Of a stretch of DNA of 64,000 nucleotides, positions 19,409 through 39,159 are shown in pieces (position 1 is the stretch's first letter; each line of letters starts with the position of its first letter). The DNA is from Pseudacidovorax sp. RU35E. GTDB lineage: Bacteria; Pseudomonadota; Gammaproteobacteria; Burkholderiales; Burkholderiaceae_C. The stretch lies in the NCBI RefSeq assembly GCF_900156165.1, contig NZ_FTMY01000001.1, positions 310,001-374,000 of the forward strand, in the 5' to 3' direction. The translations under genes were made by a program, and so were the position numbers. The notes beneath the pieces are model-generated. The model was not told where the DNA came from and did not search any database. It saw only the letters and a list, made by a program, of their open reading frames with translations.

Positions 19409-21790
19409 ATGGACGAAGACACCCAAGCCCCCCAGGCCCTGGCCGAGCCCGAGGACCCGAACAGCCTGACCCTGGCCGACTACGCCCAGACCGCCTACCT
19501 CGAATACGCGCTGAGCGTGGTCAAGGGCCGCGCGCTGCCCGACGTGTGCGACGGCCAGAAGCCGGTGCAGCGCCGCATCCTGTACTCGATGTCGCGCATG
19601 GGCCTGGGCTTTGGTGGTGCCAACGGCACCGTCGGCGCCAAGCCGGTGAAGAGTGCGCGCGTGGTCGGCGACGTGCTCGGCCGCTTCCATCCGCACGGCG
19701 ACCAGGCGGCCTATGACGCGCTGGTGCGCATGGCGCAGGACTTCGCCCAGCGCTATCCGCTGATCGACGGGCAGGGCAACTTCGGCAGCCGCGACGGCGA
19801 CGGCGCTGCGGCCATGCGCTACACCGAGGCCCGGCTGGCGCGCATCACCTCGCTGCTGCTCGACGAGATCGATGAGGGCACGGTGGACTTCGTGCCCAAC
19901 TATGACGGCTCCACCGACGAGCCGCGCCAGCTGCCCGCCCGCCTGCCTTTCGTGCTGCTCAATGGCGCCAGCGGCATCGCCGTGGGCCTGGCCACCGAGA
20001 TCCCCAGCCACAACCTGCGCGAGGTGGCCGACGCCTGTGTCGCCATGATCAAGGCCGGCGGACAACTGAGCGACGAGGAGCTGTTCGCCCTGGTGCCCGG
20101 CCCCGACTACCCGGGCGGCGCGCAGATCATCAGCAGCGCGGCCGACATCGCCGATGCTTACCGCACCGGCCGCGGCTCGCTCAAGGTGCGCGCCCGCTGG
20201 AAGATCGAGGAACTGGCCCGAGGTCAGTGGCAGGTGGTGGTCACCGAGCTGCCGCCGGGCGTGAGCAACCAGAAGGTGCTCGAAGAGATCGAGGAGCTGA
20301 CCAACCCCAAGGTCAAGGCCGGCAAGAAGGCGCTCACCACCGAGCAGCAGCAGGTCAAGGCCGCGCTGCTGGCGGTGCTCGACGCCGTGCGCGACGAGTC
20401 CAGCAAGGACGCGCCGGTGCGCCTGGTGTTCGAGCCCAAGACCTCGCGCATTCCGCAGGAGGAGTTCATCGCCACGCTGCTGGCGCAGACCTCGCTGGAG
20501 ACCTCGGCGTCCATCAACCTCACGCAGGTGGGCCTGGACGGCAAGCCGACGCAGAAGTCGCTGCGGCAGATGCTGGAAGAGTGGATCGCCTTCCGCGCCC
20601 GCACGGTCGAGCGGCGCTCGCGCTTCCGGCTCGACAAGGTGCTGGACCGCATCCACATCCTCGAAGGCCGGCAGCTGGTGCTGCTCAACATCGACGAGGT
20701 GATCGCCATCATCCGCGCGGCGGAAGACCCGAAGGCCGCGCTCATCGCCCGCTTCAATCTCAGCGACCGGCAGGCCGAGGACATCCTCGAGATCCGCCTG
20801 CGCCAGCTGGCCCGGCTGGAAGCCATCAAGATCGAGCAGGAGCTGGCCAAGCTGCGCGACGAGCAGAAGAAGCTCGAAGAGATCCTGGGCAGCCCGGCCG
20901 CGCTGCGCCGCCTGCTGGTCAAGGAGATCGAGCATGACGCCAAGACCTTCGAGGACCCGCGCCGCACGCTGATCCAGGCCGACAAGCGCGCCGTGGCCGA
21001 GGTCAAGGTGCTGGACGAGCCGGTGACGGTGATCGTGTCGCAGAAGGGCTGGGTGCGCACGCAGAAGGGCTGGAACCCCAATAAATCGGAAGGACGGGCC
21101 GACTACGCCTTCAAGGCCGGCGACAGCCTCTACGGCGCCTTCGAATGCCGCACGGTCGACACGCTGCTGGTCTTCGGCACCGCCAAGGGCGGCTCCGTGC
21201 GCGTCTATACCGTGCCGGTGGCCAGCCTGCCCGGCGGGCGCGGCGACGGGCAGCCCGTCACCACAATGATCGAGCTGGAGGCCGGCACGCAGGTGGCGCA
21301 TTTCTTCGCCGGGCCGCCGGCTGCGCAGCTGCTGCTGTCGAGCACGGGTGGCTTCGGCTTCATGGCTGCCATCGAGCACATGATGTCGCGCCACCGCAGC
21401 GGCAAGGCCTTCATGGACGTGGCCGAGGGCGACCAGCTCTGTCGCCCCAGCGTGGTGGGCGGCGCGGCCGGCACCGAGCCGCTGCCTGCTGCCACGCACG
21501 TGTGCTGCGTGGCGAGCGACCGCCAGATCCTGACCTTCGACATCGCCGAGCTCAAGCTGCTGCCCAAGGGCGGCCGTGGCCTCACGCTGATGGATCTCGC
21601 GCCCAAGGCCCGGCTGGCGGGTGCGGCGGCCTACACCCGCAGCATTCGCATCGAGGGCGATTTCCGCGGCAAGCGGCGCGACGAGCAGCTGGACATCCGC
21701 ACGCTCAACAACGCGGGCGGCACGCGCGGGCGCAAGGGCAAGCCGGGTTCGTTCACCTTCACGCCCGACTGGGTCCAGAGGGTGCTGTGA
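19409..21790 (+). CDS. parC: DNA topoisomerase IV subunit A
   Basis: A 793-aa cleavage-ligation subunit of topoisomerase IV. The winged-helix region is followed by the active-site tyrosine in [10 protein letters not shown] near residue 137, then the tower, coiled coil and C-terminal beta-propeller blades. The quinolone-determining region reads [19 protein letters not shown] (near residue 92), with Gln and Asp at the positions of E. coli ParC Ser80 and Glu84. The segment between parC and the transglycosylase gene (158 bp) shows no clear promoter. Its stop overlaps the start of a 63-aa gene. Confidence 0.97.
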
Positions 21791-21981
21791 TGGGTGGCAT
21801 CGACTTCAGCACCCTGGGCCTCGTGCTGGGCGCCGCCACCGGCGTGCTCAGCTTCTGGCTGGGCCGAAAGCTCAGCGCGCGGCGGCGGCAGCGCAAGTGG
21901 GAGAAGGAAGAAGCAGCGCGCCGAGCGACGGAGACGCGGCAGCAGCGCCGGGCCCGGGAACGTCGGGACGGGAGTCGCTGA
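21790..21981 (+). CDS. 63-aa membrane-anchored basic peptide
   Basis: It begins [18 protein letters not shown] with one membrane helix (about residues 8-25), then a very basic coiled tail rich in Arg, Lys and Glu. The ATG overlaps the parC stop (TGATG), which suggests coupled translation. The 3' half lies antisense to the end of the GT2 gene, so one of the two coding ends may be mis-called. Function unknown. Confidence 0.5.
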   Translation: MGGIDFSTLGLVLGAATGVLSFWLGRKLSARRRQRKWEKEEAARRATETRQQRRARERRDGSR

Positions 21982-22642
21982 GGCTGCGGGCCATCGCGAG
22001 CAGGGTGTCGCCGAAGCCTCCGCGCGCACGCGCCTGCGGCCGGGCACTGGTCCACACGCGGGGCGTCGCGCTCCAGGCGATGCGGGCGCCGCTGCGCTCC
22101 AGTGCGTTCACCAGCGCCACGTCCTCGCTGCAGCGCAAGGGCGCAAAGCCGCCGGCCCGGCGGTAGGCCCTGGCGCTTACGCCCATGTTGGCACCGTGGA
22201 TGTGCCGATGGCCGTCGGCATCGCAGTAGTGGTCGTCGAAATGCGCCTGCAATGGGCCGGCCAGGCTGCCATGGGCCGACCAGTCGTCCACCGCCACGCT
22301 GCCGCACACGGCATCGGCCTGCAGGGCGAGCTGCGCGGCGAGCCAGTGGGCGTCGACGCGCGTGTCGGCGTCGGTGAAGGCCAGCCAACGCGCACCCGCC
22401 GCCAGCAGCCACTCGGCGCCCGCGGCACGGGCCGCACCGACGTTCTGCGCCGCAATGGGCAGGGTCCAGGCGCCAGCTTCGCGCGCCAGGCGAGCGGTGC
22501 CATCCGCGCAGGCGTCCAGCACCACCACGACGCGCACGGCCTCGCCTTGCAACTCCACATCGGCCGCCGCCGCCTTCACAGCCGAGAGCGTGGCGGCGAT
22601 GTGCGCCTCCTCGTCGTGCGCGGGGATGACCACGCCGATCAA
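21872..22642 (-). CDS. Glycosyltransferase family 2
   Basis: A 256-aa GT-A fold glycosyltransferase. It begins LIGVVIPAHDEEAHIAATL, shows LDACADGTARLAR near residue 43, the D-x-D-type metal site FTDADTRVD near 90 and a C-terminal ED pair in LRCSEDVALVNALE. The chosen start is the TTG at 22642, which gives the canonical N-terminus and overlaps the methyltransferase stop (TTGA). The last 30 residues are alanine-rich and lie antisense to a small gene. Fourth and last gene of a coupled cluster with acyl-CoA dehydrogenase-like, PIG-L and methyltransferase genes. Confidence 0.85.
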   Translation of the reverse strand: MIGVVIPAHDEEAHIAATLSAVKAAAADVELQGEAVRVVVVLDACADGTARLAREAGAWTLPIAAQNVGAARAAGAEWLLAAGARWLAFTDADTRVDAHWLAAQLALQADAVCGSVAVDDWSAHGSLAGPLQAHFDDHYCDADGHRHIHGANMGVSARAYRRAGGFAPLRCSEDVALVNALERSGARIAWSATPRVWTSARPQARARGGFGDTLLAMARSLSDSRPDVPGPGAAAASPSLGALLLPSPTCAAAAAR

Positions 22643-23286
22643 CGCACGCCCTCCTGCTGCGCGACGGACCGATGGTCGCGCTGCCACACATGCAGCAGGA
22701 AATCGTCTTCTTCATGGCGCACGACCTGGTACAGCCCCAGCCCTTCGAGCACCCGGTGCACTTCGGCGGTGGACGTGCAACGGCCTTCGAAGTCGGGCCG
22801 CCAGTCGCAGGCGACGAGCACGCCGTCTGCGGCCAGTGTGGCGGCGCAGCAGTGCGCCACGCGGGCGACATCGATGCGCGAAAGGAAGTAACCCACCTCG
22901 CTGAGGACGATCAGGTCGAAGCGCTCGGCCTGCGGCCATTCCTGTGGAATGACGCGCTGGGCCACCTGGACGTGGTCGTGGTGCGCCAGGCGGGCGCGTG
23001 CGGTCTCCACGGCGCGTGGGTGGAAGTCGCTGCACATCAGCATGTCGCAGCGCGCCGCCAGGGCGTCGCTCAGTTCCGCCGCGCCGCAGCCGGGTTCGAA
23101 GGCCCGGCGAAAGCGCGGGCGGGGCAGGGCGGCCAGCAACACATCGCGCTTGCGACGCTCGTACCACCGGGTTCGCAGGCCGTAGGGGTCGTCGTCCTGG
23201 GCGTAGATGCCGTCGAAGTAGCGCTCGCCGCCGCCCTCGCGGTCAGGAGATGGGGCTGCAGCAAGGGAGGCCATCATGTCTTTCAC
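22639..23286 (-). CDS. NodS-like SAM-dependent methyltransferase
   Basis: A 215-aa class I methyltransferase. The N-terminal YFDGIYAQDDDPYGLRTRWY block (near residue 23) is characteristic of the NodS/PF05401 type, which N-methylates a chitooligosaccharide amine in rhizobia. Motif I is FEPGCGAAELSDAL near 63 and LIVLSEVGYFL near 126 follows. GTG at 23286 overlaps the PIG-L stop (GTGA); an ATG pair 9 and 12 nt further in is the alternative start. Following a deacetylase, an amino-sugar N-methylation is a reasonable inference, not proven. Confidence 0.85.
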   Translation of the reverse strand: MKDMMASLAAAPSPDREGGGERYFDGIYAQDDDPYGLRTRWYERRKRDVLLAALPRPRFRRAFEPGCGAAELSDALAARCDMLMCSDFHPRAVETARARLAHHDHVQVAQRVIPQEWPQAERFDLIVLSEVGYFLSRIDVARVAHCCAATLAADGVLVACDWRPDFEGRCTSTAEVHRVLEGLGLYQVVRHEEDDFLLHVWQRDHRSVAQQEGVR

Positions 23287-24068
23287 TCGGGCAGGAAAAA
23301 CGTTTCGAACGGGCGGGCGGCGCGCGCCACGGTGGTGGCGCGCAACACCGGCTCCGCGCCTGTGCTCGGGTCAGGGGCCAGCTGGCTCGCGAAGGCGTCA
23401 ATGGCGACCTGCTTGCGCCGTGCAATGGCCGCGGGCAGGGGCAACCGGCGTGCGCGGTGCCACGGCATCCGCGCATCACCGGGCCGGGCCCAGTGCCAGG
23501 CCCATACCGGCGCTTCGATGCAGCGCGCGCCGGCGGTGCGGGCGGCGTGAGCGGCGGCGCGGCCCGTGGCCTCGTGGTCCGGATGGCCGTCGAGCTGCCA
23601 GGTGGTGGCCACCGTGTCTCCAGGTCGCAGCAGGTCACAGAGCTGGCGTGCGAGTTCTGTCTCCATGGCCGTCAGTCCGCCATCGGGCAGACCCAGCCGC
23701 ACCAGGTTCTGCGCCTGCACGCCGAGGGACTTGAAGGCGGCGAGCGTCTCCCGGGGGCGTTCCGCGGCCAGCCGCTCGGGGGGCCACAGCCGGGAGGCCG
23801 GGTGGCTGGCGCAGCCGTCCGTGACGGCCACCAGCGCCACTGGAAGGCCAATCTGCGTCGCGAGCGCCAGAAGACCGCCAGCCGCCAATATCTCGTCATC
23901 CGGGTGTGGTGCGACCACCACGACGCGGGCGCCCGCAGGCGCCAGGTCGCTCATGTGGGCCGCAGGGACGGCCGCCAGGCGATGGCAGCGTGCCCATTGC
24001 GATTCGGTGGTGCCATCGCCCGGGCCGATGTGGCGTGCCGCAGCCGGGTCGGCCATCGTTGCAGCCAT
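23283..24068 (-). CDS. PIG-L family deacetylase
   Basis: A LmbE/PIG-L fold zinc-dependent deacetylase of about 260 aa. The signature PHPDDE lies near residue 52, followed by TDGCASHP and the distal zinc ligand pattern DGHPDHEATGRAA near 160. The family removes N-acetyl groups from sugars such as GlcNAc-inositol. The start at 24068 makes a TGATG junction with the upstream gene; a start at 24083 is equally open. It is embedded between an acyl-CoA dehydrogenase-like gene and a NodS-like methyltransferase. Confidence 0.88.
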   Translation of the reverse strand: MAATMADPAAARHIGPGDGTTESQWARCHRLAAVPAAHMSDLAPAGARVVVVAPHPDDEILAAGGLLALATQIGLPVALVAVTDGCASHPASRLWPPERLAAERPRETLAAFKSLGVQAQNLVRLGLPDGGLTAMETELARQLCDLLRPGDTVATTWQLDGHPDHEATGRAAAHAARTAGARCIEAPVWAWHWARPGDARMPWHRARRLPLPAAIARRKQVAIDAFASQLAPDPSTGAEPVLRATTVARAARPFETFFLPE

Positions 24069-25123
24069 CACAGCGCGCACCATCCACCGAAGGCGGTTGG
24101 CGTGTCGTCGTCGGACATCAGCGCCAGGGTGCCCAGGCCCGCTTCATCGCGTTCCGCATGGCTCTGCCGCACGAAGATGGGCAGGTCCGCCATCAGACGG
24201 GCCAGCTTGGCATCCGTGCACAGGGGCCCCGCGCCCAGGGCGCGGCCCGCGTGGCGCAAGACCTCGCCCGCCACGTGCTCCACCGCCAGACGAACGCGCA
24301 GGGCCGTGGCCTGGGCGTCGTCGGCAGGGTGCGTGTCGATCCAAGAGGCACTTTCCCGCAGCAGCGCCGCGCAGGCGCACAGCAGGGATTCGGCGGCACC
24401 CAGATGCGCCTGCTGGTGGCCATTGGGCTTGCCCTTGCGCAAGTGCCGGCGCATGCGTGTCGCCACCGCAGCCGCTGCGCCCCACCAACAGGCCGCGATC
24501 CCCGCCCCGCCATGCCAAAAGCCGGGTCGGTTCACGTAGTCGCCGGGAGCCCCCACTGCCGTGGCCATCACGCCGTCGAAGTCGACCTGCGCCGTGTCCG
24601 TCGGGCCCATGCCGACCGCGTGCCAGTTGGGGTTGCCGATGGTCACGCCGGGCGCATGCATCTCCACCGCCGCGAGGCCCGGCTGCCCATCTGCGTACCA
24701 GCCGCTCACCAGCGCATGTGTGACCTGCCGGGCGCCGGAGCACCACGCCTTGGCGCCGTGCAGCCGCAACTGCCCGTCGTCGGCAGGTTCGAAACGAAGG
24801 CGCGCATTTGGCGGTTCCGCGCACCAGGTGCCCCAAAGGCTGCCCTCGGGCCGGGCGGGGCCGTGGAGCTCTTCAAGGATGGCCAGGGCGTCGGTGTGGC
24901 CCTCGTACAGCTTCGCCAGACTGAGGTCGTGGCCGGCCACCGCCGCGAGCCACTGCCAGCGCAGCAACGTGCTGCCGTGCCCGGGCAGAGGAAGACGGTC
25001 CAACCCGGCGAGTGCGAGGTCGTCAAGCGTCAACGCTGTCGTGGCCGACTCTGCGGCCAGCCGGTCGAGCACGCGCGCGGGGGGCTGCGCGATGGACAGC
25101 GAGGAATAGGAAGCATCGCTCAT
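24068..25123 (-). CDS. Acyl-CoA dehydrogenase-like flavoprotein
   Basis: A 351-aa protein of acyl-CoA dehydrogenase shape, shorter than the usual 380-400. The beta-barrel middle shows LWGTWCAEPPNARLRFEPA and LRLHGAKAWCSGARQVTHAL (near residue 130), followed by a four-helix C-terminal domain. The usual C-terminal YGG-x-GY block with the nearby catalytic glutamate is not recognisable, so ordinary beta-oxidation is doubtful. Start ATG at 25123 (MSDASYSSLS). First gene of a four-gene cluster whose partners act on sugars, so its acyl substrate may be non-standard. Confidence 0.85.
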   Translation of the reverse strand: MSDASYSSLSIAQPPARVLDRLAAESATTALTLDDLALAGLDRLPLPGHGSTLLRWQWLAAVAGHDLSLAKLYEGHTDALAILEELHGPARPEGSLWGTWCAEPPNARLRFEPADDGQLRLHGAKAWCSGARQVTHALVSGWYADGQPGLAAVEMHAPGVTIGNPNWHAVGMGPTDTAQVDFDGVMATAVGAPGDYVNRPGFWHGGAGIAACWWGAAAAVATRMRRHLRKGKPNGHQQAHLGAAESLLCACAALLRESASWIDTHPADDAQATALRVRLAVEHVAGEVLRHAGRALGAGPLCTDAKLARLMADLPIFVRQSHAERDEAGLGTLALMSDDDTPTAFGGWCAL

Positions 25124-25322: not shown

Positions 25323-26216
25323 ATGAATTCCCTTCGTCTCGGCATGATCGGCATCGGCCTGATGGGCCACGGCATTGCCAGCAACCTCGTGAAGCATGGT
25401 CACCAACTCACCGTGCTGGAACACCCGGGCAACCAGCCGCTCGACGCCCTGACGGCAGCCGGCGCCCGGACGGCGGCGACCCCGGCCGCGCTGGTGGCCG
25501 AGGCCGACTACGTCATCCTCTGTGTCACGGGCTCGCCCCAGGTCGAGGCGGTGCTGGTGGGCGACGGCGGCCTGCTCAAGAGCATCCGGCCGGGCACGGT
25601 CATCATCGATTGCTCGACCTCCATCCCCGATTCGACCCTGCGCATGGCCAACGCCGTGCAGCAGGCCGGCGGCCGCTTCCTGGACGCGCCGATGACGCGC
25701 ACGCCCAAGGAGGCCGCTGAAGGCCGACTCAATCTGCTGGTGGGTGGCGACGCCGCACTGTTCGACGAATGTCGGCCGCTGCTGGCCTGCTTCGCCGAGA
25801 ACATCACCCACGCCGGTGGCGTCGGCGCCGGCCACGGCATGAAGCTGCTGCACAACTACGTGTCCCTGGGCTCGGTGGCACTCATCGCCGAGGCCGCCGC
25901 CTGCGCGCGCCGTGCGGGCGTGTCGGCCGACGTCTTCGTCGAAGTGCTCGCCAAGGGCGGGGGCGGGGGCGTGGCGCTGGAGCGGCTCAAGCCCTTCATC
26001 CTGAACAACGACGCCAGCGGCCTGCGCTTTGCCATGTCCAACGCGCAGAAGGACCTGGGCTACTACACGCAGATGGCCGACGGCTTCGACGCCGCGCAAC
26101 GCATCGCGGAGGCGGTCTACGGCACCTACGCTGGCGCGGTCGAGCAGGGCGGGGTGCAACGCCTGGTGCCTGAACTTGTGGCGCTGCTGGCCGAGGTCGG
26201 AGACAAGTCGCGCTGA
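25323..26216 (+). CDS. NAD(P)-dependent beta-hydroxyacid dehydrogenase
   Basis: A 297-aa enzyme of the 3-hydroxyisobutyrate dehydrogenase family. The N-terminal nucleotide-binding motif is GMIGIGLMGHGIASNL (residue 7 on). The substrate-binding motif DAPMTRTPKEAAEGRL is near residue 121, where the family consensus is DAPVSGG; the altered TRTP suggests a different substrate. The catalytic-lysine helix is GAGHGMKLLHNY near 170. Which hydroxyacid it uses cannot be told. It is divergent from the acyl-CoA dehydrogenase-like gene, with a 199-bp gap that must hold both promoters. Confidence 0.9.
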   Translation: MNSLRLGMIGIGLMGHGIASNLVKHGHQLTVLEHPGNQPLDALTAAGARTAATPAALVAEADYVILCVTGSPQVEAVLVGDGGLLKSIRPGTVIIDCSTSIPDSTLRMANAVQQAGGRFLDAPMTRTPKEAAEGRLNLLVGGDAALFDECRPLLACFAENITHAGGVGAGHGMKLLHNYVSLGSVALIAEAAACARRAGVSADVFVEVLAKGGGGGVALERLKPFILNNDASGLRFAMSNAQKDLGYYTQMADGFDAAQRIAEAVYGTYAGAVEQGGVQRLVPELVALLAEVGDKSR

Positions 26217-30661: not shown

Positions 30662-31351
30662 ATGAAGCCTCCCTATAACGAACTGAGCCTAGGCGCCGGT
30701 TTCAGCCATCCGCACGCCGTCCCGACGCAAGGGACTGTGTCTCGCTTCTTCAAGCGCGCGATGGACATCGTGGGGGCGCTGATCTTCTTCGCGCTCCTCG
30801 GGTGGCTCTTCATGATCATCTGGGCACTGGTCCTCATGACCACGGGCGGCCCCGCCATCTACAAACACCCCCGCATGGGCCGGGGCGGTCGCGAGTTCAA
30901 GTGCCTCAAATTCCGCTCGATGGTCACCAACTCCGAAGAGGTGCTGCGCCACCTGCTGGAGACCGACCCCGCCGCTCGCGCGGAGTGGGAAGCCACCTTC
31001 AAGCTCAAGAACGACCCGCGCATCACCCGCTTCGGTCGCTTCATCCGCAAGACCAGCCTGGACGAACTGCCCCAGTTCTGGAACGTGCTGATGGGCGACA
31101 TGAGCCTGGTCGGCCCGCGCCCCGTGGTGCGCAAGGAACTGGAGCAATACTACGGCCTGTATGCCCCCCTGTATGGCAGTGTGCGTCCGGGCATCACCGG
31201 ACCCTGGCAGGTTGGTGGGCGTTCCGATCTGAGTTACGGTGAGCGAGTCGCTCTGGACGTGAGCTATGTACACACCCGCAGCGCTTTTGGTGATATTTGC
31301 TTGCTATTAAAGACGGTGAGTGTATTTGTGAAACACAAAGGCTCCTACTAA
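30662..31351 (+). CDS. Initiating undecaprenyl-phosphate sugar-phosphate transferase
   Basis: A 229-aa bacterial sugar transferase (polyprenol phosphate phosphoglycosyl transferase, WbaP/WcaJ C-terminal domain type). After a short N-terminus there is a membrane-penetrating helix (GALIFFALLGWLFMIIWALV, about 38-57). The catalytic core follows: KCLKFRSMV near 81, KTSLDELPQFWNVLMGDMSLVGPRP near 123 and PGITGPWQVGGRSDLSY near 162. It attaches the first sugar phosphate to undecaprenyl phosphate. The extra N-terminal membrane domain of long WbaP proteins is absent. Base composition matches the chromosome, unlike the A+T-rich genes that follow. Confidence 0.93.
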   Translation: MKPPYNELSLGAGFSHPHAVPTQGTVSRFFKRAMDIVGALIFFALLGWLFMIIWALVLMTTGGPAIYKHPRMGRGGREFKCLKFRSMVTNSEEVLRHLLETDPAARAEWEATFKLKNDPRITRFGRFIRKTSLDELPQFWNVLMGDMSLVGPRPVVRKELEQYYGLYAPLYGSVRPGITGPWQVGGRSDLSYGERVALDVSYVHTRSAFGDICLLLKTVSVFVKHKGSY

Positions 31352-31407
31352 CTTCGCACCTCAGTTTATTTATTTAATAAAATAAATATTAGCTCGTGGT
31401 CAACAGC

Positions 31408-31437
31408 AAATGCCGCAAACGCGGCATTTGTTGTTTA
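31408..31437 (+). terminator. Strong intrinsic terminator after the initiating transferase
   Basis: A 10-bp perfect stem CAAATGCCGC / GCGGCATTTG (31408-31417, 31422-31431) with loop AAAC is followed by TTGTTT. It lies between the sugar transferase and the A+T-rich polysaccharide genes. Expression of the latter needs either read-through, antitermination or a promoter in the short stretch before 31461. Confidence 0.75.
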
Positions 31438-31460
31438 AAAAACGTATTATCTAAAAATTT

Positions 31461-32459
31461 ATGATGTTCCAAATAAAAAAGATTCTTAGAATTTTTAAGA
31501 TCGAAACTAAGAATCTAATTAAGATTAGAAATATACAATGTGGCAAGGTCACATTATCGTATGACTCATCTCCTCCATATTACATTAAGGAATGGTACAA
31601 CTACTGTTTACGCCTACTCACCGAGGCAGCACGTGCATCAGAAGCGTCATTCAATATAGTTTTAGGGGAACATCAGCCTAGAATAAAAAACGGACGGCCA
31701 ACATATCGAATTGCTCTTCAAATTGAACATACGTTGGTTAGGGAAGGAGGGCGCGACAGCGAGGGAGCAGAGGCTGGCTCTATACGAATTGATGACTCAA
31801 CGGCAGAAACATATCTTGTTCGACTAGTAAATTTAGGCGCGCTTGAAGCAGCGGACATCATCCTAGATTACAGCCGAGCGAATTTAATAAACGTCAAGCA
31901 TTCCCCTGCCTACGTTACGCTAACAAAAAAACACTTTTATTTCGTACCGCTAATAAATGATGACGCTTCACGAGCAATAGCAGATAGGACGCATCAGTGC
32001 ATAACCATGTTCGGCAATCCTGATATTGGCCGCCGAAAAAAAATACTCGAAGAACTCGCGAAAGTCGTTCCAGTAAAAAACATAAACGGAATTTATCGGG
32101 GCGTCGCGAAAGTCTATCAGTCAACTAAAACAATAATAAATATTCATCAGACTGAGCATCACTGCAATGCTGAAGAGCTACGTATTGTACCGGCCGCCCT
32201 CAATGGTGCCATCGTTATTGCTGAACGCTCGCCGTTGACGGAAAAGATATTTACCCGTCACTTTGCTATCTGGGCGTCGATTGAGAACATCCCAAAAGTA
32301 ACCGCCGAAGTTGTTAAAAATTATCCTGAATTCTATCAAAAAATGTTCAGCGAAAAATTTATGAATCGTGTTAGAAGACTAAGTATAAGAAATAGTTTGG
32401 CGGCTAAGAAAATAATAAATCAATTAGAAAAAAAATCCGTAGATCAGCGAATTATCTGA
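31461..32459 (+). CDS. Probable glycosyltransferase-like protein of the polysaccharide locus
   Basis: A 332-aa cytoplasmic protein, A+T-rich and rich in Ile/Lys codons compared with the chromosome. No family is recognised with confidence. The C-terminal part (NIHQTEHHCNAEELRIVPAA near residue 231, then NGAIVIAERSPLTEKIF) resembles the donor-binding end of GT-B glycosyltransferases, where an E-x7-E-like pattern lies in a similar place. It starts 24 nt after the intrinsic terminator and ends 1 nt before the next gene. Its role in repeat-unit assembly is inferred from location. Confidence 0.7.
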   Translation: MMFQIKKILRIFKIETKNLIKIRNIQCGKVTLSYDSSPPYYIKEWYNYCLRLLTEAARASEASFNIVLGEHQPRIKNGRPTYRIALQIEHTLVREGGRDSEGAEAGSIRIDDSTAETYLVRLVNLGALEAADIILDYSRANLINVKHSPAYVTLTKKHFYFVPLINDDASRAIADRTHQCITMFGNPDIGRRKKILEELAKVVPVKNINGIYRGVAKVYQSTKTIINIHQTEHHCNAEELRIVPAALNGAIVIAERSPLTEKIFTRHFAIWASIENIPKVTAEVVKNYPEFYQKMFSEKFMNRVRRLSIRNSLAAKKIINQLEKKSVDQRII

Positions 32460-32460
32460 C

Positions 32461-33168
32461 ATGGCAGTAGACTCAATTCCTCTGGTTCTGACTGGTACTA
32501 TAACCCCACGCTCCATTCTGACCGCTTACGCGAATCCAACTCAAAGAAGGAACGAATACCTACTTGCGCTTAGATACTACTCCGAACATGCTCAAGTGTA
32601 TTTTGTTGAAAACTCCGGCTACCAACTTAATGAAGACGCTGATTTCACTAGCATTCCTAATTGCAAATTAATAGAGCTGGCGCCGAGCGATGAATTTGAC
32701 AAAGGAAAAGGCTTTCAAGAATTTTTAATGCTGGATAATTGGATCGATCAGTTCGGACAAAATCATAAAGGATTTATAAAAATTACTGGTCGTTATTTGG
32801 TGCAAAACATCAATAAAATAATTCATGATATTCAATTTGGCAAAAAGAACAAGATAATTATAGAGCGACTTGCTTCAAACCTTGGCGTTGCACTTACAGA
32901 TGTTTTTTACATTGCTACGGAACAATATAACGAACATTTGAAAGGATGTTATAAAGAGGCAAACGACAAGCTCGGTGTATATATCGAGCACGTAGTAGGA
33001 ATAAAAATTCGTGATTTGTTAAATGTAGAGGTTTTTCCAAACCTCCCGAAGAAAGCGGGTATAAGCGGCTCGACCGGTCAACCGTTACCCGAAGGAATGA
33101 AAAAAGCAATACAAAGGGTGATAAGAAATAGCCTTTATCCGTTGCAACCGCGTTACAGATTAATTTGA
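32461..33168 (+). CDS. Putative sugar-transferase-like protein, unassigned
   Basis: A 235-aa protein of the A+T-rich block, starting 1 nt after the previous gene. The N-terminus PLVLTGTITPRS and RRNEYLLALRYYSEHAQVYFVENSGY (near residue 29), with GFIKITGRYLVQNI near 98, look like a small GT-A-like nucleotide-sugar enzyme. I cannot see a sure D-x-D. Basic C-terminus. Function inferred only from position between the initiating transferase and the flippase. Confidence 0.65.
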   Translation: MAVDSIPLVLTGTITPRSILTAYANPTQRRNEYLLALRYYSEHAQVYFVENSGYQLNEDADFTSIPNCKLIELAPSDEFDKGKGFQEFLMLDNWIDQFGQNHKGFIKITGRYLVQNINKIIHDIQFGKKNKIIIERLASNLGVALTDVFYIATEQYNEHLKGCYKEANDKLGVYIEHVVGIKIRDLLNVEVFPNLPKKAGISGSTGQPLPEGMKKAIQRVIRNSLYPLQPRYRLI

Positions 33169-33197
33169 GGCTATAGAAATATTAGCAGGCTCTCGCC

Positions 33198-34691
33198 ATG
33201 AAAAAATTGATAAAACGTAATCTGATTGCAAACTACGCGGGTCAGATGTGGGTCGCATTCATCGGCTTGGCGTTCATTCCTACTTACATAAAAATACTCG
33301 GCATTGAAGCATATGGGATAATCGGAATTTTTTCGGTTATTCAAGCTTGGATGTTTATGCTGGACATGGGCATGACGCCAACACTAGGGCGAGAGATGGC
33401 TAGCATTCAGAATAATCCTGCTAGCAGGCAAGGCGTCCGAGATTTACTTCGAACCATCGAAATCCTTGCCGTTGTGCTATCGGTGGGCGTAATAATTTTG
33501 CTAGCGCTATCTGCCTCATGGATATCCGCAGTATGGCTCAAGCCGGCTCAAATTTCCAAAGGGACGATAGTCCACTCGTTTCAAATAATGGGCATAGTTG
33601 TCGCTTTAAGATTTCTTGAAGGTCTTTATCGAAGTTCATTAGTAGGTCTGCAGCGCCAAGTCCTGTTTAATACCGTTAGCGCGGCAACGGCGACTCTCCG
33701 AGCCGTGGGCGCCGTTGTTGCCTTAAAGTACATATCCCCGACCCTAGAAATGTTCTTTATTTGGCAAGCTATCATCTCCCTGTTGTCAACCCTTGTGCTG
33801 GCGGCATGCAGTTATGTTTATCTGCCCAAGGCGCCTCTCAAAGCCAAATTCAGCGTGCCTTCTTTAAAACGAGTAAAAAATTTTGCGATAGGGATGATTG
33901 GTGTGAATATCATGACATCAATTTTCACTCAGTCAGACAAGGTATTCGTCTCTAATCAAATAGAGCTAAAAAGTGTTGGCTATTATATGCTTGCAACAAC
34001 TCTGTCAGGTTCGTTGTTTATGCTTGTAGGACCAATTACACAAGCATATTATCCTAATTTTTGCAGGCTGCACTCAGAAGGGAATGAAAAGGCGCTGATT
34101 AATAGTTTCCGAGGTGGTTCCAATTTGGTTGCAATAATAGTTGGATCTGCAGCGTCAATATTGTCAATTTTTGGATCGTACATAGTGCTAATATGGACCG
34201 ACGACGTCGCGATGGCTCAAGCTTCTGGCGCCATCCTGACGCTACTAGCAATAGGAAACTTAGTTAATGCAATTACCTGGACTCCGTTGCAGCTTCAGTT
34301 AGCTCACGGCTGGACTACCTTAGCTTCTCGCAGCATGGCAGTTAGCCTTATGCTTGGCGCTCCCTTGTACTTTTTACTTTCAAATGGCTACGGCGCGATT
34401 GGTGTTGCGAGTACGTGGGTCTTTATAAACATTCTTTATCTCGCATTTGTGACATCTCAAATGTTTAAAAAAATCGCTCGCGGTATCCGCTTTCAATGGA
34501 TGGTCTCAGACACAACGTATCCGATATTGGCGGCGTTCATCACGTCTTATTTATGCGCTAAGCTATATCCAAGTGAAGTAGAGAAATCAATGCAGATTAT
34601 ATTTATTTTCGCTTGCGGCGCAACTGTACTTTTGGTCGCTTCTGCTCCAACAATGCTAAGAGTAAAAAATAAATTCATTAGTCAAAATTAA
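33198..34691 (+). CDS. Wzx-type oligosaccharide flippase
   Basis: A 497-aa polytopic inner-membrane protein of the polysaccharide transport (MOP) superfamily. About 12-14 hydrophobic helices are evident. The N-terminus KRNLIANYAGQMWVAFIGLA and the block ILGIEAYGIIGIFSVIQAW (near residue 34) are typical of Wzx/RfbX proteins. It would flip undecaprenyl-linked repeat units to the periplasm. A+T-rich coding like its neighbours. A polymerase-like gene follows after 50 bp. Confidence 0.9.
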   Translation: MKKLIKRNLIANYAGQMWVAFIGLAFIPTYIKILGIEAYGIIGIFSVIQAWMFMLDMGMTPTLGREMASIQNNPASRQGVRDLLRTIEILAVVLSVGVIILLALSASWISAVWLKPAQISKGTIVHSFQIMGIVVALRFLEGLYRSSLVGLQRQVLFNTVSAATATLRAVGAVVALKYISPTLEMFFIWQAIISLLSTLVLAACSYVYLPKAPLKAKFSVPSLKRVKNFAIGMIGVNIMTSIFTQSDKVFVSNQIELKSVGYYMLATTLSGSLFMLVGPITQAYYPNFCRLHSEGNEKALINSFRGGSNLVAIIVGSAASILSIFGSYIVLIWTDDVAMAQASGAILTLLAIGNLVNAITWTPLQLQLAHGWTTLASRSMAVSLMLGAPLYFLLSNGYGAIGVASTWVFINILYLAFVTSQMFKKIARGIRFQWMVSDTTYPILAAFITSYLCAKLYPSEVEKSMQIIFIFACGATVLLVASAPTMLRVKNKFISQN

Positions 34692-34741
34692 ATTATTTTA
34701 AATGAAAATTTAATAAAATCATAAACTGTCGAAAAATAATA

Positions 34742-35998
34742 ATGGAATCAATACAAAAAAAAGGGAAGTTCGTCTTGATTCTGATGGCACTGATTTACCT
34801 TTTTGATCAGCGAATCGGTGACTGGAGTGCGGTCAATGCGGCAGGATTTATTGCATTCTGCATTGCGCTATTTTTTCTAAAAGCCACTTCCGAAAGGACT
34901 GGTAAAGTAAAAAAGAACTGGATTTATTTGCTATTGGCAATAATAGCCTACAGTTCGACTGCATATTTGTTGAATGATCAGTGCTCCGTTGAACTAAAGG
35001 GCGCTTTGTCTTTAACCCTGCTATGTATCGCATTCTACATATTGGGAGACGGTAATTTCGGGGAATTTGTACGGTCACGTTTTTTTTCGAATTTTGTAAT
35101 GCTATTGGCCTCGAGCTTCGTAATCCTAAATTACGTTGGAATCACTCCTTTTAGGTCTGATAGGAATTCCGGCCTCTTCTTCGAAGCGTCACATTTGGCG
35201 ATATACCTTCTTCCATTTTTGGCCTATAGACATCTTAAGTCTAAAAAAGATTTAATAACTTGGATGACTACATTAATCATGTTGGTTTTCTCATCCTCGA
35301 CTACTCTGATTGTAGGTTTGCTAATTATATTTGTGATAAAATTTATTAAGCGATACAATCGTCGGCTTATCATCGCGAGCAGTGCGGCCGCGTTAATAGT
35401 CGGGGCACTTATCGGAATTTTATTGAGCGGTGCTATTGATGCGCCTGAGTTGCGAGCCCGAGTCATTAACTTATTTATTGGGGGCGACGCATCAGCCGCG
35501 GACCACGAAAATTTAAGCTCATTAGTTTGGTTAAACGGTTGGTCGCAGATGACCGAAACCCTCCGTTTAACTAACGGAATAGGTCTGGGTTTCAACCAAA
35601 TGGGCTGTGGAAACTTCATGTACGTCGGTAAATACACCGCCCTCATATCAGATGCAATTCTCGGTATTATTTTGAACGCCGAAGACGGTTCTTTTATGTC
35701 CTCTAAGCTCGTTTCAGAATTAGGGTTTCTTGGATTTTTAATAATTGCATTTCTGCTAATCAAGGCCTGGCGTGCGCTGTTCAAATTCATACGGGTGGAG
35801 GCTGGAATGAGACAGCCTGATACGTACGATGTTTTAATAAGAGCTTCAGGTGCAATTTGTCTTATAGGCCTACTTTTTGTGCGCGCACCTGGCTCGTATT
35901 TTTCCCTGCCGGTCTATGCCGCTATGTCGATGCTTTTTTCTAATCAATTGATTAGATCTAACCGTATTCGAAAAAACTCTGAATCGAGTCCAACGTGA
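34742..35998 (+). CDS. Wzy-like polysaccharide polymerase
   Basis: A 418-aa polytopic inner-membrane protein with about 10-12 helices. A larger periplasmic stretch (about residues 230-320) lies between helices, the general shape of O-antigen ligase/polymerase proteins. Sequence motifs are weak, as is normal for Wzy, so the call rests on topology and its position next to wzx and glycosyltransferase genes. Its TGA overlaps the ATG of the GT2 gene by 4 nt. Confidence 0.8.
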   Translation: MESIQKKGKFVLILMALIYLFDQRIGDWSAVNAAGFIAFCIALFFLKATSERTGKVKKNWIYLLLAIIAYSSTAYLLNDQCSVELKGALSLTLLCIAFYILGDGNFGEFVRSRFFSNFVMLLASSFVILNYVGITPFRSDRNSGLFFEASHLAIYLLPFLAYRHLKSKKDLITWMTTLIMLVFSSSTTLIVGLLIIFVIKFIKRYNRRLIIASSAAALIVGALIGILLSGAIDAPELRARVINLFIGGDASAADHENLSSLVWLNGWSQMTETLRLTNGIGLGFNQMGCGNFMYVGKYTALISDAILGIILNAEDGSFMSSKLVSELGFLGFLIIAFLLIKAWRALFKFIRVEAGMRQPDTYDVLIRASGAICLIGLLFVRAPGSYFSLPVYAAMSMLFSNQLIRSNRIRKNSESSPT

Positions 35999-36753
35999 AT
36001 TTGACGAAAGAATTGCCATTAATTTCGGTCATTATAAGTGTCTTAAATGATTTAAAGAATTTAAAAGAGACACTTTTGCACCTGTCGGAGATTGAGTATA
36101 AAAATCTTGAAATCGTAGTCGTAGATTGCGTTTCTACCGACGGCACCCGTGCATTTCTGGATGCTTATGCCGACAAAAGGCTTCGATATATATCCGAACG
36201 TGATAATGGGATATATGATGCTTGGAATAAAGGCGTGCGTTTTGCTAAGGGCGACTATCTGGCATTTTTGGGTGCAGGGGATTATTACAATAGGAGTGGA
36301 CTACAGAAACTAGTGCAGTGCGCGACCGAACATCCGACTGCAGAACTCATCACCGGAAAAGTGCTTGTTCACAATGGGGTGAAAATTATTAAAGAAAGAG
36401 GGAGCGCTTGGAGTTGGCGCAAGTTTCGGAACAACATGAATATTGCGCATCCCGGAGCCCTCCACTCTAGAGGGCTCTTTGAGCGGGTGGGAAGCTTTGA
36501 TGTGTCGTTTCGGATCGCAGGGGACTATCAGCTGCTTCTCAGGGCCGGCGAGACGTTAAGAACCGCATATTTGAATGAGCCTGTGGCGCTCATGTTATCG
36601 GGTGGAATCAGCCACGGTGGGCGAGACGCAATATTTGAGGCTCATCGCGCGAAGGTCTCCACGGATTCCGTGGCGAGGCTCAATGCCAATTTGACCACAG
36701 CTTGGATGTTATTTAAATTTTATATAAAACAAGCACTGCGCCAGAAATTATAG
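35995..36753 (+). CDS. Glycosyltransferase family 2 (WcaA-like)
   Basis: A 252-aa GT-A enzyme. It shows LISVIISVLNDLKNLKETL (residue 9 on), VVDCVSTDGTRAFLDAY near 41, the region ERDNGIYDAWNKGVRFAKGD near 65, and LAFLGAGDYYN near 86, where a metal-binding D-x-D would normally lie; here it reads GAGD. Membership of the family is clear but the sugar is unknown. The start overlaps the polymerase stop (ATGA). Confidence 0.88.
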   Translation: MNLTKELPLISVIISVLNDLKNLKETLLHLSEIEYKNLEIVVVDCVSTDGTRAFLDAYADKRLRYISERDNGIYDAWNKGVRFAKGDYLAFLGAGDYYNRSGLQKLVQCATEHPTAELITGKVLVHNGVKIIKERGSAWSWRKFRNNMNIAHPGALHSRGLFERVGSFDVSFRIAGDYQLLLRAGETLRTAYLNEPVALMLSGGISHGGRDAIFEAHRAKVSTDSVARLNANLTTAWMLFKFYIKQALRQKL

Positions 36754-36783
36754 GATCGCCCCTGGAAATTTTAAATTTTGATT

Positions 36784-37902
36784 ATGTTTGCCCAAAAAAA
36801 ACATCGCTCGTTTGGAAATATCTCTCAAGTTTGCGTGGTAGGAATGTTTCCCCCGCCACTGAACGGGATGTCAGCCGTAACGTCAATGATTCATTCTTTG
36901 TTGGTTGCATACGGATCAGAGAATGTGGAAACTATTGACTGTTCCCCTAAAGTCTACCGACTGAGAACACCGGTCGCTCGCGCGCGAAAATTCATTAGAA
37001 TAATAGGTTTGCTATATAAATTTCATCTCTGGTGTATTAGCCGGGAAGGTGGAAAAATATATCTTTCTGTTTCTGGTCGTCTTGGGCAGATTTACGACCT
37101 CTTATTCGTATGCATTGCTAGGTTTCACGGAAAAAATGTATATCTCCATCATCATGGCTACCTATATATTGAAAGAAAAAATTTTCTAGCTAGCATTTTA
37201 TTCAAGGTTGCCGGAAAAAGCGCTATTCACATAGCAGCTTGCGAAAAAATGGCGCTTGAACTAGCCAACATGTATTCAATAATTTCGAACACCAGAGTGA
37301 TATCAGGTGTAATTTGCTTGCCGGAGGTTGAGAAAGTACCGTCGGTACGAGCGAAGCTCAGGACGGTGGGTTTCCTAAGCAATATTTCTGCGGAAAAGGG
37401 GATATTTGAGTTCATAGATTCGGCCATTGTTTTGTCCAAGGTATTCCCGGAGTTAAATTTTATCATTGCTGGTCAATTTCAAGACGCTTCTTCAGAGCGG
37501 GCAGTTACAAATTTCATCCAGCAAGTGAAATCAGCACATTATGTGGGCCCTGTTTACGGTAACGACAAGACAGGCATGCTCGACTCCATAGACTGCTTGC
37601 TTTTCCCTACCCATACTGAATCAGAAGGCCTCGTCATTCATGAGGCACACAGCAGATGCGTTCCCGTTATAGCAAGATCCACAGGATGTATTGCGTCATT
37701 TAACGAAAAGGGTTTGAATTTGACTGCATCCGATGCAACAGACTTTGTCGAGCAAGCCGTCGCTATCATTTCTAAATGGATTAGCGTAAGTGAAGATTTC
37801 TTAAAGCTATCGGCTAAGGTATATCATAACCATTTAGAATTTCGTAAGAAAAACGATAAGGCCGTCAGAGAAATTGTTAAAGAAATTGCAATCGAGCGAT
37901 GA
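36784..37902 (+). CDS. Glycosyltransferase family 4
   Basis: A 372-aa GT-B enzyme. N-terminal MFPPPLNGMSAVTSMIHSLL (near residue 22) is the acceptor-side glycine loop. The C-terminal half has VGFLSNISAEKGIFEFIDSA near 198 and the donor-site block LLFPTHTESEGLVIHEAHS near 278, with the E-x7-E pattern. ATG at 36784 is used; a TTG at 36778, 11 nt after a GGA, is also possible. The acceptor and donor sugars are unknown. Confidence 0.88.
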   Translation: MFAQKKHRSFGNISQVCVVGMFPPPLNGMSAVTSMIHSLLVAYGSENVETIDCSPKVYRLRTPVARARKFIRIIGLLYKFHLWCISREGGKIYLSVSGRLGQIYDLLFVCIARFHGKNVYLHHHGYLYIERKNFLASILFKVAGKSAIHIAACEKMALELANMYSIISNTRVISGVICLPEVEKVPSVRAKLRTVGFLSNISAEKGIFEFIDSAIVLSKVFPELNFIIAGQFQDASSERAVTNFIQQVKSAHYVGPVYGNDKTGMLDSIDCLLFPTHTESEGLVIHEAHSRCVPVIARSTGCIASFNEKGLNLTASDATDFVEQAVAIISKWISVSEDFLKLSAKVYHNHLEFRKKNDKAVREIVKEIAIER

Positions 37903-37950
37903 AGTTCCTAAAGCAATATTGATTAAATCGTCGCTGCTCATTATTTTATC

Positions 37951-39159
37951 ATGATCCTATTTTTGTCGCCATTTTTCGCGCCTGAACCAATTTCTACCGG
38001 AAAATATAATGCTTCTTTAGTAGAAGGCTTAGTCTTAGCGGGTGAAAAGGTCACAGTGGTATGCGGGTATCCAACTTATCCAGATTGGCGGCCACGTAAA
38101 TGCAACGATGGTGATACTACGTATTCTGTCGTTCGTGGCGGTCTCGCAGTAAGATATCCAAAGTCTCCAATATTGCGCCGAATTATTTTGGAGAGTTGGT
38201 TTTTCATTTTTATCGCAATAACTATTTTAAAATTTAAGAAAAATGTTGATCGAGTGATTTGCGTTTTACCTCCCAGTCTTTATATACTGCCAATTTTATG
38301 GAAATTCTCAAAAAAAATTCCTGTCATTGGTGTGGTTCATGATCTTCAAGGTATACATGCTGAAGCCAGCCCCTCAGGTTTTAGGCGGTTTGTCGCCACG
38401 ACGGTAAAGGTCGTCGAGAGGGCTTTGTTTCGCCGATTGGATAAGCTCATATTCCTTTCTGAGTCAATGAGAAATGTCGCTATTAAAGAATATGGCGTTG
38501 ACGGAGATAAAGCAGAAGTATGCTACCCCTTTGTAACAATGTCAAATTGTAAGGGGGAATCGAATTTTTTTGAAGATTACTCAAATGGCGATGAAAATGT
38601 TGCTCATGTTGTTTATTCGGGCGCATTGGGTGAAAAGCAGAATCCGGCGCAATTGTTTTCTTTCTTTCTGAATTTGGCAGAAAACGATGAAGGCATCCAT
38701 TGTCATATTTTTTCTTCTGGGCCCGAGATTGAAAAGATGAAAATTGCCTTAGATCTCAAAGGTGGTTCCTCCAGGATGCATTTGCACGATCTTGTTGCCG
38801 AGGATAAATTGCAGAGCCTATATCTGTCATCAACGATCCAAATAATACCTCAGAGAGTTGGCACTGGTGATGGTTCTCTCCCGTCTAAGCTACCTAATTT
38901 AATTGCTGCAAAATGCCGAATTTTGGCCATATGCGATGATGATTCAGAGTTGGCTACCTTGGTCGGTAAATATAATCATGGGCATGTCTGTTCCGGTTGG
39001 CAATTGCAGATGTTTTCTGCAAAGGTTTATGAAGTTTTAAAATTGAGAAATTGTGATCTAGCACCGTCCGCTAGTGTTGGTGAACAGGCCCGTAGTTCGG
39101 ATGCTGAGGGAGTTCAGTACATTTTTTCTAGACAGCGTACGATAGACGCCCTACTGTAA
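37951..39159 (+). CDS. Glycosyltransferase family 4, WcaI-like
   Basis: A 402-aa GT-B enzyme. The N-terminus LFLSPFFAPEPISTGKYN, then VVCGYPTYPDWRPRKC near residue 36, matches the WcaI/WbuB-like pattern. A mid-region helix (ESWFFIFIAITILKF, about 81-95) may sit on the membrane. The C-terminal half has VYSGALGEKQNPAQL near 227 and RVGTGDGSLPSKLPNLIA near 306. WcaI in colanic acid synthesis is thought to transfer fucose, which would suit gmd/fcl in this locus; that is inference. An insertion-sequence pile starts 196 bp downstream. Confidence 0.87.
   Translation: MILFLSPFFAPEPISTGKYNASLVEGLVLAGEKVTVVCGYPTYPDWRPRKCNDGDTTYSVVRGGLAVRYPKSPILRRIILESWFFIFIAITILKFKKNVDRVICVLPPSLYILPILWKFSKKIPVIGVVHDLQGIHAEASPSGFRRFVATTVKVVERALFRRLDKLIFLSESMRNVAIKEYGVDGDKAEVCYPFVTMSNCKGESNFFEDYSNGDENVAHVVYSGALGEKQNPAQLFSFFLNLAENDEGIHCHIFSSGPEIEKMKIALDLKGGSSRMHLHDLVAEDKLQSLYLSSTIQIIPQRVGTGDGSLPSKLPNLIAAKCRILAICDDDSELATLVGKYNHGHVCSGWQLQMFSAKVYEVLKLRNCDLAPSASVGEQARSSDAEGVQYIFSRQRTIDALL

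Follow-up and report, generated by a model that had tools for sequence, protein, structure and literature searches.

Four overlapping genes on the minus strand of a 64,000-nucleotide stretch of Pseudacidovorax sp. RU35E DNA (contig NZ_FTMY01000001.1, positions 310,001 to 374,000; hereafter the window) encode, in this order, an acyl-CoA-dehydrogenase-like (ACD-like) flavoprotein, a PIG-L deacetylase, a NodS-like methyltransferase and a GT2-like glycosyltransferase (GT2); this cassette runs from 25123 down to 21872. We propose that the four genes make up a pathway for a small, nitrogen-modified amino-sugar glycoside that serves survival of drying, osmotic and oxidative stress, a scheme to which, taken as a whole, we give a probability of about 0.5. 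That the cassette encodes one stress-linked small-molecule pathway we regard as very probable. The computed basis consists of the enzyme families, the motifs of the PIG-L and GT2 proteins, the lack of the dehydrogenase glutamate in the ACD-like protein, conservation as a unit and an association with trehalose and katE genes in part of the lineages.

In the proposed route, GT2 would move N-acetylglucosamine (GlcNAc) from UDP-GlcNAc onto a small acceptor, possibly trehalose, glucose or a polyol. The acetyl group would presumably be removed next by the PIG-L enzyme, the freed amine would be N-methylated by the NodS-like enzyme, and the nitrogen would finally be oxidised by the ACD-like protein, acting as a two-component flavin monooxygenase whose partner is a general flavin reductase. 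The product is predicted to be intracellular and protective under water or oxidative stress. Should this be correct, trehalose would not be the only stress protectant of many Pseudomonas and Burkholderiales, which would make a second, chemically unusual one.

The original prediction, made from the window alone, saw four open reading frames (ORFs) with three overlapping junctions (TGATG, GTGA and TTGA) and took them for one unit. The ORFs and junctions are present, the family calls agree by Pfam, and the four genes recur together in other genomes. Of 150 genomes sampled from the family, 14 have a match to the ACD-like protein, as do 7 of 369 genomes of the class, own genome included in both. 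Among the Burkholderiaceae relatives the four genes lie within ~10 kb in 12 of 13 loci, in two gene orders, and the thirteenth locus (L017) is without GT2. A scan of the species-level genome collection (GTDB) with the ACD alignment confirmed at least 494 stretches encoding an ACD-like protein. We examined the best-scoring 80 loci, some of them short, so that the counts describe close relatives, mostly from Pseudomonas and Burkholderiales; a complete cassette was present in 59 (52 in the window's order and 7 in three other arrangements), GT2 was absent from 12, PIG-L from 8, and the ACD-like gene stood alone in 1.

Matches to the ACD-like protein were also found on 62 plasmid records, 14 of which were examined. 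One of these, Deinococcus L119, was rejected as a relative and dropped from all counts, since its stretch holds acyl-CoA dehydrogenases and no PIG-L or cassette, leaving 13. In searches with several family members, 10 of the 13 plasmid loci carried a complete cassette, including records from Acinetobacter, Comamonas, Kitasatospora, Embleya, Sulfitobacter, Komagataeibacter and Nostoc; L111 and L227 are without PIG-L, and L117 has the ACD-like gene only. GT2 is split into two matches in L110, and in L116 and L229 it is encoded on the other strand; in six plasmid loci 14 of 16 annotated same-strand junctions overlap, by 1-13 bases. Because the block recurs in Pseudomonadota, Actinomycetota and Cyanobacteriota, its conservation is far beyond chance.

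GT2 was in most cases displaced rather than missing. For the loci without GT2, 13 genome handles were searched and 12 carry GT2 elsewhere (E ≤ 5e-92), the copy in L201 having an internal stop; two handles (G071 and G516) denote the same genome, so that 11 distinct genomes have GT2 elsewhere. The exception is a Janthinobacterium scan locus (L094), where the ACD-like gene is alone. Of the 11 stretches around a stray GT2, four have a katE gene next to it; katE is immediately upstream in L214, L215 and L216 and lies on the other strand in L221. In the first three of these stretches (L214:5849-8642, L215 and L216), where katE is followed by the stray GT2, one genome belongs to the window's genus by computed kinship. 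Some Pseudomonas loci (L052, L056, L057 and L106) have a second PIG-L gene at the usual GT2 position.

Three plasmid loci have features of their own. On the Pandoraea plasmid pPV15 (L110:12230-12872) the two-piece GT2 matches are not in the gene table, which is incomplete, and the gene may be interrupted. A PIG-L protein beside a catalase in Cupriavidus (L111) was not counted as a family member, being only 27-40% identical to members over short stretches. An A. baumannii record filed as a plasmid has a complete cassette (L226:7992-10870), with a predicted aminoglycoside phosphotransferase gene ~4.5 kb further.

The ACD-like protein had been described as acyl-CoA dehydrogenase-like and as lacking the C-terminal catalytic block. 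The fold stands, but the AlphaFold model is complete and includes the C-terminal helical bundle (pLDDT 83.6, pTM 0.84), and we therefore rejected a truncated acyl-CoA dehydrogenase. What remains of the second claim is that the protein has no Pfam Acyl-CoA_dh_1/2 match (it is not among the 32 and 24 own-genome matches at E ≤ 1e-10 and 1e-5, respectively) and no catalytic glutamate. Acyl-CoA dehydrogenases carry this residue at one of two positions, C-terminal as in medium-chain acyl-CoA dehydrogenase (MCAD) or before an arginine as in long-chain acyl-CoA and isovaleryl-CoA dehydrogenases (LCAD/IVD). None of the 14 rows of the ACD-like family has Glu at either position; Ser/Thr is found at the first and Gly/Ala at the second. 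The control consisted of 18 own-genome dehydrogenase rows, from which four in the wrong frame (L143, L149, L153 and L186) and three of monooxygenase type or unclear (L183, L185 and L189) were dropped. Among the 11 usable rows, Glu is at the first position in 4 (L140, L141, L142 and L144) and at the second in 5 (L146, L147, L148, L150 and L151).

A His that follows the first-position Ser/Thr is invariant in the ACD-like family. It aligns with the His of the own-genome SfnB/DszC-like protein L183 (SHNP), itself aligned with the HDP of DszC, TdsC and MsuC, and the CSG motif of DszC is kept as well. In DszC the C-terminal His and the Ser at the flavin are His391 and Ser163, and the DszC residues aligned here are catalytic. 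A difference is that DszC His92 has an invariant Lys as its counterpart in the ACD-like family. Against the PDB, a profile of the 14 relatives placed TdsC and DszC at the top, followed by ColB1, DnmZ and MsuC; in the same list of 23 entries DnmZ was 6th, KijD3 11th-12th and the ORF36 nitrososynthase 15th, mixed with ordinary dehydrogenases. Foldseek with the model gave a similar picture, as DszC, KijD3, TdsC and DnmZ lead (TMq up to 0.77), with KijD3 5th, DnmZ 9th and ORF36 32nd in the fold list. DszC, TdsC, SfnB and MsuC, the best matches by sequence and fold, with the CSG motif and the C-terminal His aligned, are flavin monooxygenases with sulfur substrates. With moderate confidence, based on sequence comparison, we assign the ACD-like protein to the flavin monooxygenases, which it resembles more than it does a truncated dehydrogenase. 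Its substrate would be a sugar amine, by analogy with DnmZ, KijD3 and ORF36 and in view of its partners in the cassette.

The other three proteins agree with the original prediction of enzymes acting on a sugar nitrogen, a glycosyltransferase, a deacetylase and an N-methyltransferase of NodS type. Pfam places them over the family cut-offs of PIG-L, NodS and Glycos_transf_2, and the ACD-like protein has only an Acyl-CoA_dh_M match under its cut-off (27.4 vs 33.3 bits); for all four proteins every NCBIfam equivalog cut-off was missed by far. In the PIG-L protein (Pfam PIG-L 93.5 bits) the zinc motifs HPDDE and distal HxDH are preserved, as H60, D62, D63, E64, H167, D169 and H170 are invariant in 20 rows. 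The solved structures closest to it are those of TT1542 and diacetylchitobiose deacetylases, followed by Dbv21/teicoplanin-type enzymes, MshB and BshB; among NCBIfam models it scores highest with BshB1 (57.3 bits, cut-off 182.5) and BshB2 (47.4 bits, cut-off 195.25). The methyltransferase is very close to PDB entry 4isc (E 1.3e-68), which we take to be a structural-genomics entry from Pseudomonas syringae, and next to NodS (3ofj, E 4e-23). It scores 43.9 bits with Pfam NodS (cut-off 24) and 65.3 bits with the NodS equivalog of NCBIfam (cut-off 300); we therefore rejected membership and regard it as a relative of NodS.

The GT2 model has one GT-A-like domain without an added helical region and carries the DxD and ED motifs. 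Foldseek gave TM-scores of ~0.55 to diverse GT2 enzymes, and neither the PDB profile nor the fold search named a donor or an acceptor. Membership of TIGR04283 (arsenosugar/MftF-like glycosyltransferases) was rejected at 49.2 bits vs a cut-off of 182. The GT-A transferase, PIG-L deacetylase and NodS-like methyltransferase fit a GlcNAc-type route.

The link to trehalose, katE and drying tolerance lies outside the window, in many relatives, and hence beyond the view of the original prediction. In the Pseudomonas scan loci glgX is just upstream of the cassette in 26 of 46, usually with one small ORF between, and malQ, treY and treZ lie further up (the identity of treY and treZ is shown in L048); 2 more loci have glgE, and in 9 others a haem-oxygenase-like diiron enzyme (HDO) is encoded within 10 kb. 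Comamonas has the run otsA, ACD-like, PIG-L, methyltransferase, GT2, otsB, and an Acinetobacter ursingii plasmid holds katE, HDO, the cassette and otsAB within ~13 kb. Near the cassette are found glgE and a catalase in Cupriavidus, and a spore photoproduct lyase gene, ppk2 and a ferritin-like gene in Kitasatospora. Trehalose, katE or HDO-type markers were near the cassette in 37 of 46 Pseudomonas, 6 of 13 Burkholderiaceae, 5 of 13 plasmid and 1 of 34 other scan loci. As controls we used stretches at spaced coordinates chosen by hand, 20 from 10 of the 13 Burkholderiaceae genomes and 20 from four Pseudomonas genomes. A marker was present in 0 of 20 and 3 of 20, respectively, and one of the three (Pseudomonas L247) extends into the L056 cassette region and does not count as independent. 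The neighbour counts overstate the evidence within Pseudomonas, since related loci are not independent. A real trehalose link is favoured by the use of different routes (treYZ, otsAB and glgE) in different lineages.

This was further analyzed by co-occurrence in the 150 family genomes, comparing the 14 carriers of the ACD-like gene with the 136 others by Fisher tests that ignore the kinship of the genomes. At E ≤ 1e-30 otsA was present in 14/14 carriers and 44/136 others (p=6e-7), and over the curated cut-off in 11/14 and 19/136 (p=9e-7). The corresponding numbers were 11/14 and 10/136 for treY (p=7e-9) and 11/14 and 24/136 for katE, the long-type catalase (p=6e-6). A type VI secretion system gene, used as control, was found in 6/14 carriers and 37/136 others (p=0.23).

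The same data allow for a more specific reading, in which the compound modified by the cassette is trehalose itself or an alpha-glucan intermediate; the GT2 acceptor would be trehalose or a maltosaccharide and the product a methylated amino-sugar trehalose derivative. The cassette sits by different trehalose routes (glgX in Pseudomonas, otsA/otsB in Comamonas, glgE in Cupriavidus and otsAB in Acinetobacter), and otsA accompanies it in every carrier at the lower threshold. However, most Variovorax and Paraburkholderia loci are away from trehalose genes, treY is missing in 3 of 14 carriers, and shared regulation would yield identical neighbourhoods. We consider this reading somewhat unlikely.

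Turning back to the proposed amino-sugar glycoside pathway, several results weigh against it. Two of the 11 usable own-genome dehydrogenase rows (L145 and L152) are also without Glu at both positions, and the ordinary dehydrogenase 2dvl outranks KijD3 in the PDB profile search. True acyl-CoA dehydrogenases reach TM-scores about equal to those of the monooxygenases, so that fold alone does not decide between the two, and the helical C-terminal bundle, being common to true dehydrogenases, is not diagnostic. The cassette is without a flavin reductase gene. Seven of the eight genomes whose scan loci lack PIG-L have no family PIG-L at E ≤ 1e-20; because of these eight loci and seven genomes, the PIG-L step may be replaced or dispensable. 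The ACD-like gene is found alone in scan locus L094 and plasmid locus L117. No trehalose, katE or HDO gene is near 33 of the 34 non-Pseudomonas scan loci, 7 of the 13 Burkholderiaceae loci or the cassette of the window. Among the 19 independent Pseudomonas controls, 2 have a marker by chance (tre genes in L238 and katE in L230), and the p-values of the co-occurrence tests are uncorrected for phylogeny.

A connection to drying tolerance comes from Acinetobacter. PMC13232832 reports that DtpC, an HDO co-transcribed with katE, and KatE have redundant roles in the protection of dried A. baumannii; a small molecule with protective action is suggested there. In three A. baumannii records the protein encoded immediately upstream of katE, in the published dtpC-katE order, shares 54% identity with the HDO of the A. 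ursingii plasmid. On 11 related Acinetobacter plasmids a DtpC homologue precedes the matched part of the ACD-like gene by ~0.84 kb and katE is a few kb away; this is one inherited arrangement, not eleven. The DtpC homologue thus adjoins the cassette on Acinetobacter plasmids, whereas ~0.85-1.1 Mb separate it from dtpC-katE in the three A. baumannii records. A term search of the main text of PMC13232832 gave no mention of acyl-CoA, deacetylase, glycosyl or methyltransferase. If the proposal holds, the product of the cassette is a candidate for the small molecule still missing from the account of DtpC drying tolerance. In the most far-reaching form of our proposal, a glucosamine glycoside with an N-methyl group and an oxygenated nitrogen (hydroxylamine or nitrone) would act as both compatible solute and radical scavenger in drying cells, and would in some lineages be further processed by DtpC-type diiron oxidases. 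We regard this form as unlikely; if true, the glycoside would be the small molecule proposed by the DtpC authors and an undescribed class of protectant.

Two other products have to be considered. The cassette could decorate a surface glycolipid, lipopolysaccharide (LPS) or exopolysaccharide, which a GT2 and a deacetylase would fit; in the window an exopolysaccharide-type cluster (Bac_transf, flippase-like and GT4-type proteins) begins 5.5 kb from the cassette. Against this, GT2 is modelled as a single GT-A-like domain with no added helical region, and among the 12 recurrent neighbour clusters that were searched for family matches there is no lipid enzyme, flippase, ligase or LPS gene. The glycolipid product named in the original prediction is not supported, and we hold surface decoration to be very unlikely. 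A specialised metabolite, such as a signal or antibiotic, encoded by genes that spread together with accessory stress islands and plasmids, would agree with the patchy distribution in family and class, with the 62 plasmid records and with the natural-product N-oxygenases among the relatives of the ACD-like protein. Yet the cassette is without a transporter or regulator (genes for ABC ATPases, LysR regulators and hybrid kinases are found repeatedly in its vicinity, at varying distances) and stress genes are frequent neighbours, which makes this alternative quite improbable too.

The proposed amino-sugar glycoside route has partial counterparts in known systems. The first two steps to mycothiol and bacillithiol (MshA/MshB and BshA/BshB) use a glycosyltransferase and a PIG-L deacetylase to make a small glucosamine glycoside, the amine of which is then modified, and the products are protective. 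By analogy this resembles the first two proposed steps of the cassette; the difference is that MshA and BshA are GT4 enzymes whereas the cassette has a GT2, and that its amine is predicted to be methylated and oxidised. The bacillithiol pathway itself was rejected, as no BshC-type cysteine ligase was found in the own genome (0 matches at E ≤ 0.001; in the control, BshC matches in 3 of 14 genomes). In the Nod factor route (NodC/NodB/NodS) a GT2 and a deacetylase precede methylation of the free glucosamine amine by NodS. The cassette likewise has a GT2, a deacetylase and a NodS-type methyltransferase, but its GT2 is small, PIG-L takes the place of NodB and there is no NodA acyltransferase. KijD3, DnmZ and ORF36 use the acyl-CoA-dehydrogenase fold on a sugar amine, with dTDP-sugars as substrates (the title of PDB entry 4kcf shows a dTDP-sugar). 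The ACD-like family has this fold in common with them, but it is shorter and ~20% identical. By the membership tests given above, the cassette belongs to none of the mycothiol/bacillithiol, Nod factor and amino-sugar N-oxygenase pathways.

No description of the four-gene block was found by title or abstract start among the papers listed in searches of the open-access literature, which were directed at the block and its neighbourhood, P. syringae locus tags, N-oxygenases and Acinetobacter drying, and a term search of the main texts of PMC8084333 and PMC6599016 gave no sign of it. The treY/Z deletion described in the main text of PMC8982409 spans PSPTO_3125-3130 and no further; from the P. viridiflava locus L087 we infer that the cassette follows these genes in that strain. 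The enzymes are of known kinds, whereas their combination and the stress linkage appear to be new.

The gene layout of the cassette is given in the table. All four genes have a coding-like G+C by codon position. The GT2 ORF extends to 22687, and the TTG start is supported by the residues at the aligned position in relatives (Met in 7 of 17, Val in 4 and Leu in 1).

Table. Genes and junctions of the four-gene cassette in the window.
Feature	Position	Strand	Remarks
ACD-like flavoprotein gene, first of four	24068..25123	-	351 aa; acyl-CoA-dehydrogenase fold without catalytic Glu; nearest to group D flavin monooxygenases
PIG-L (LmbE-like) de-N-acetylase gene	23283..24068	-	261 aa from ATG in TGATG; HPDDE and DGHPDHE motifs intact
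NodS-like class I S-adenosylmethionine methyltransferase gene	22639..23286	-	215 aa, GTG start
GT-A-type, GT2-like glycosyltransferase gene	21872..22642	-	256 aa from TTG; DxD and ED motifs intact
Overlap of ACD-like stop and PIG-L start, TGATG	24066..24070	-	
Overlap of PIG-L stop and methyltransferase start, GTGA	23283..23286	-	
Overlap of methyltransferase stop and GT2 start, TTGA	22639..22642	-	

A 63-codon ORF on the plus strand (21790-21981) overlaps the topoisomerase IV subunit A gene at its stop codon (TGATG) and converges on the 3' end of the GT2 gene, which it overlaps by 110 bp. The C-terminal tail of GT2 in this overlap is of low complexity and mostly without counterpart in the aligned relatives.

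In many Pseudomonas a 120-aa protein without Pfam or NCBIfam match is encoded between glgX and the cassette (L056:9480-9842 and relatives; cluster 65, 18 loci). In some, a 249-aa ORF without family match lies downstream of the cassette (L051:14445-15194; cluster 68); it overlaps a short-chain dehydrogenase/reductase match, and may be no more than a spurious frame within the gene concerned. In the window, the exopolysaccharide-type cluster (30662-39159, plus strand) encodes a bacterial sugar transferase, a flippase-like protein, two group 1/4 glycosyltransferases and three further proteins without Pfam match at E ≤ 1e-5. The divergent neighbour of the cassette (25323-26216, plus strand) encodes a 3-hydroxyisobutyrate-dehydrogenase-like protein, and beyond it lies the gene of a DUF6806 protein.

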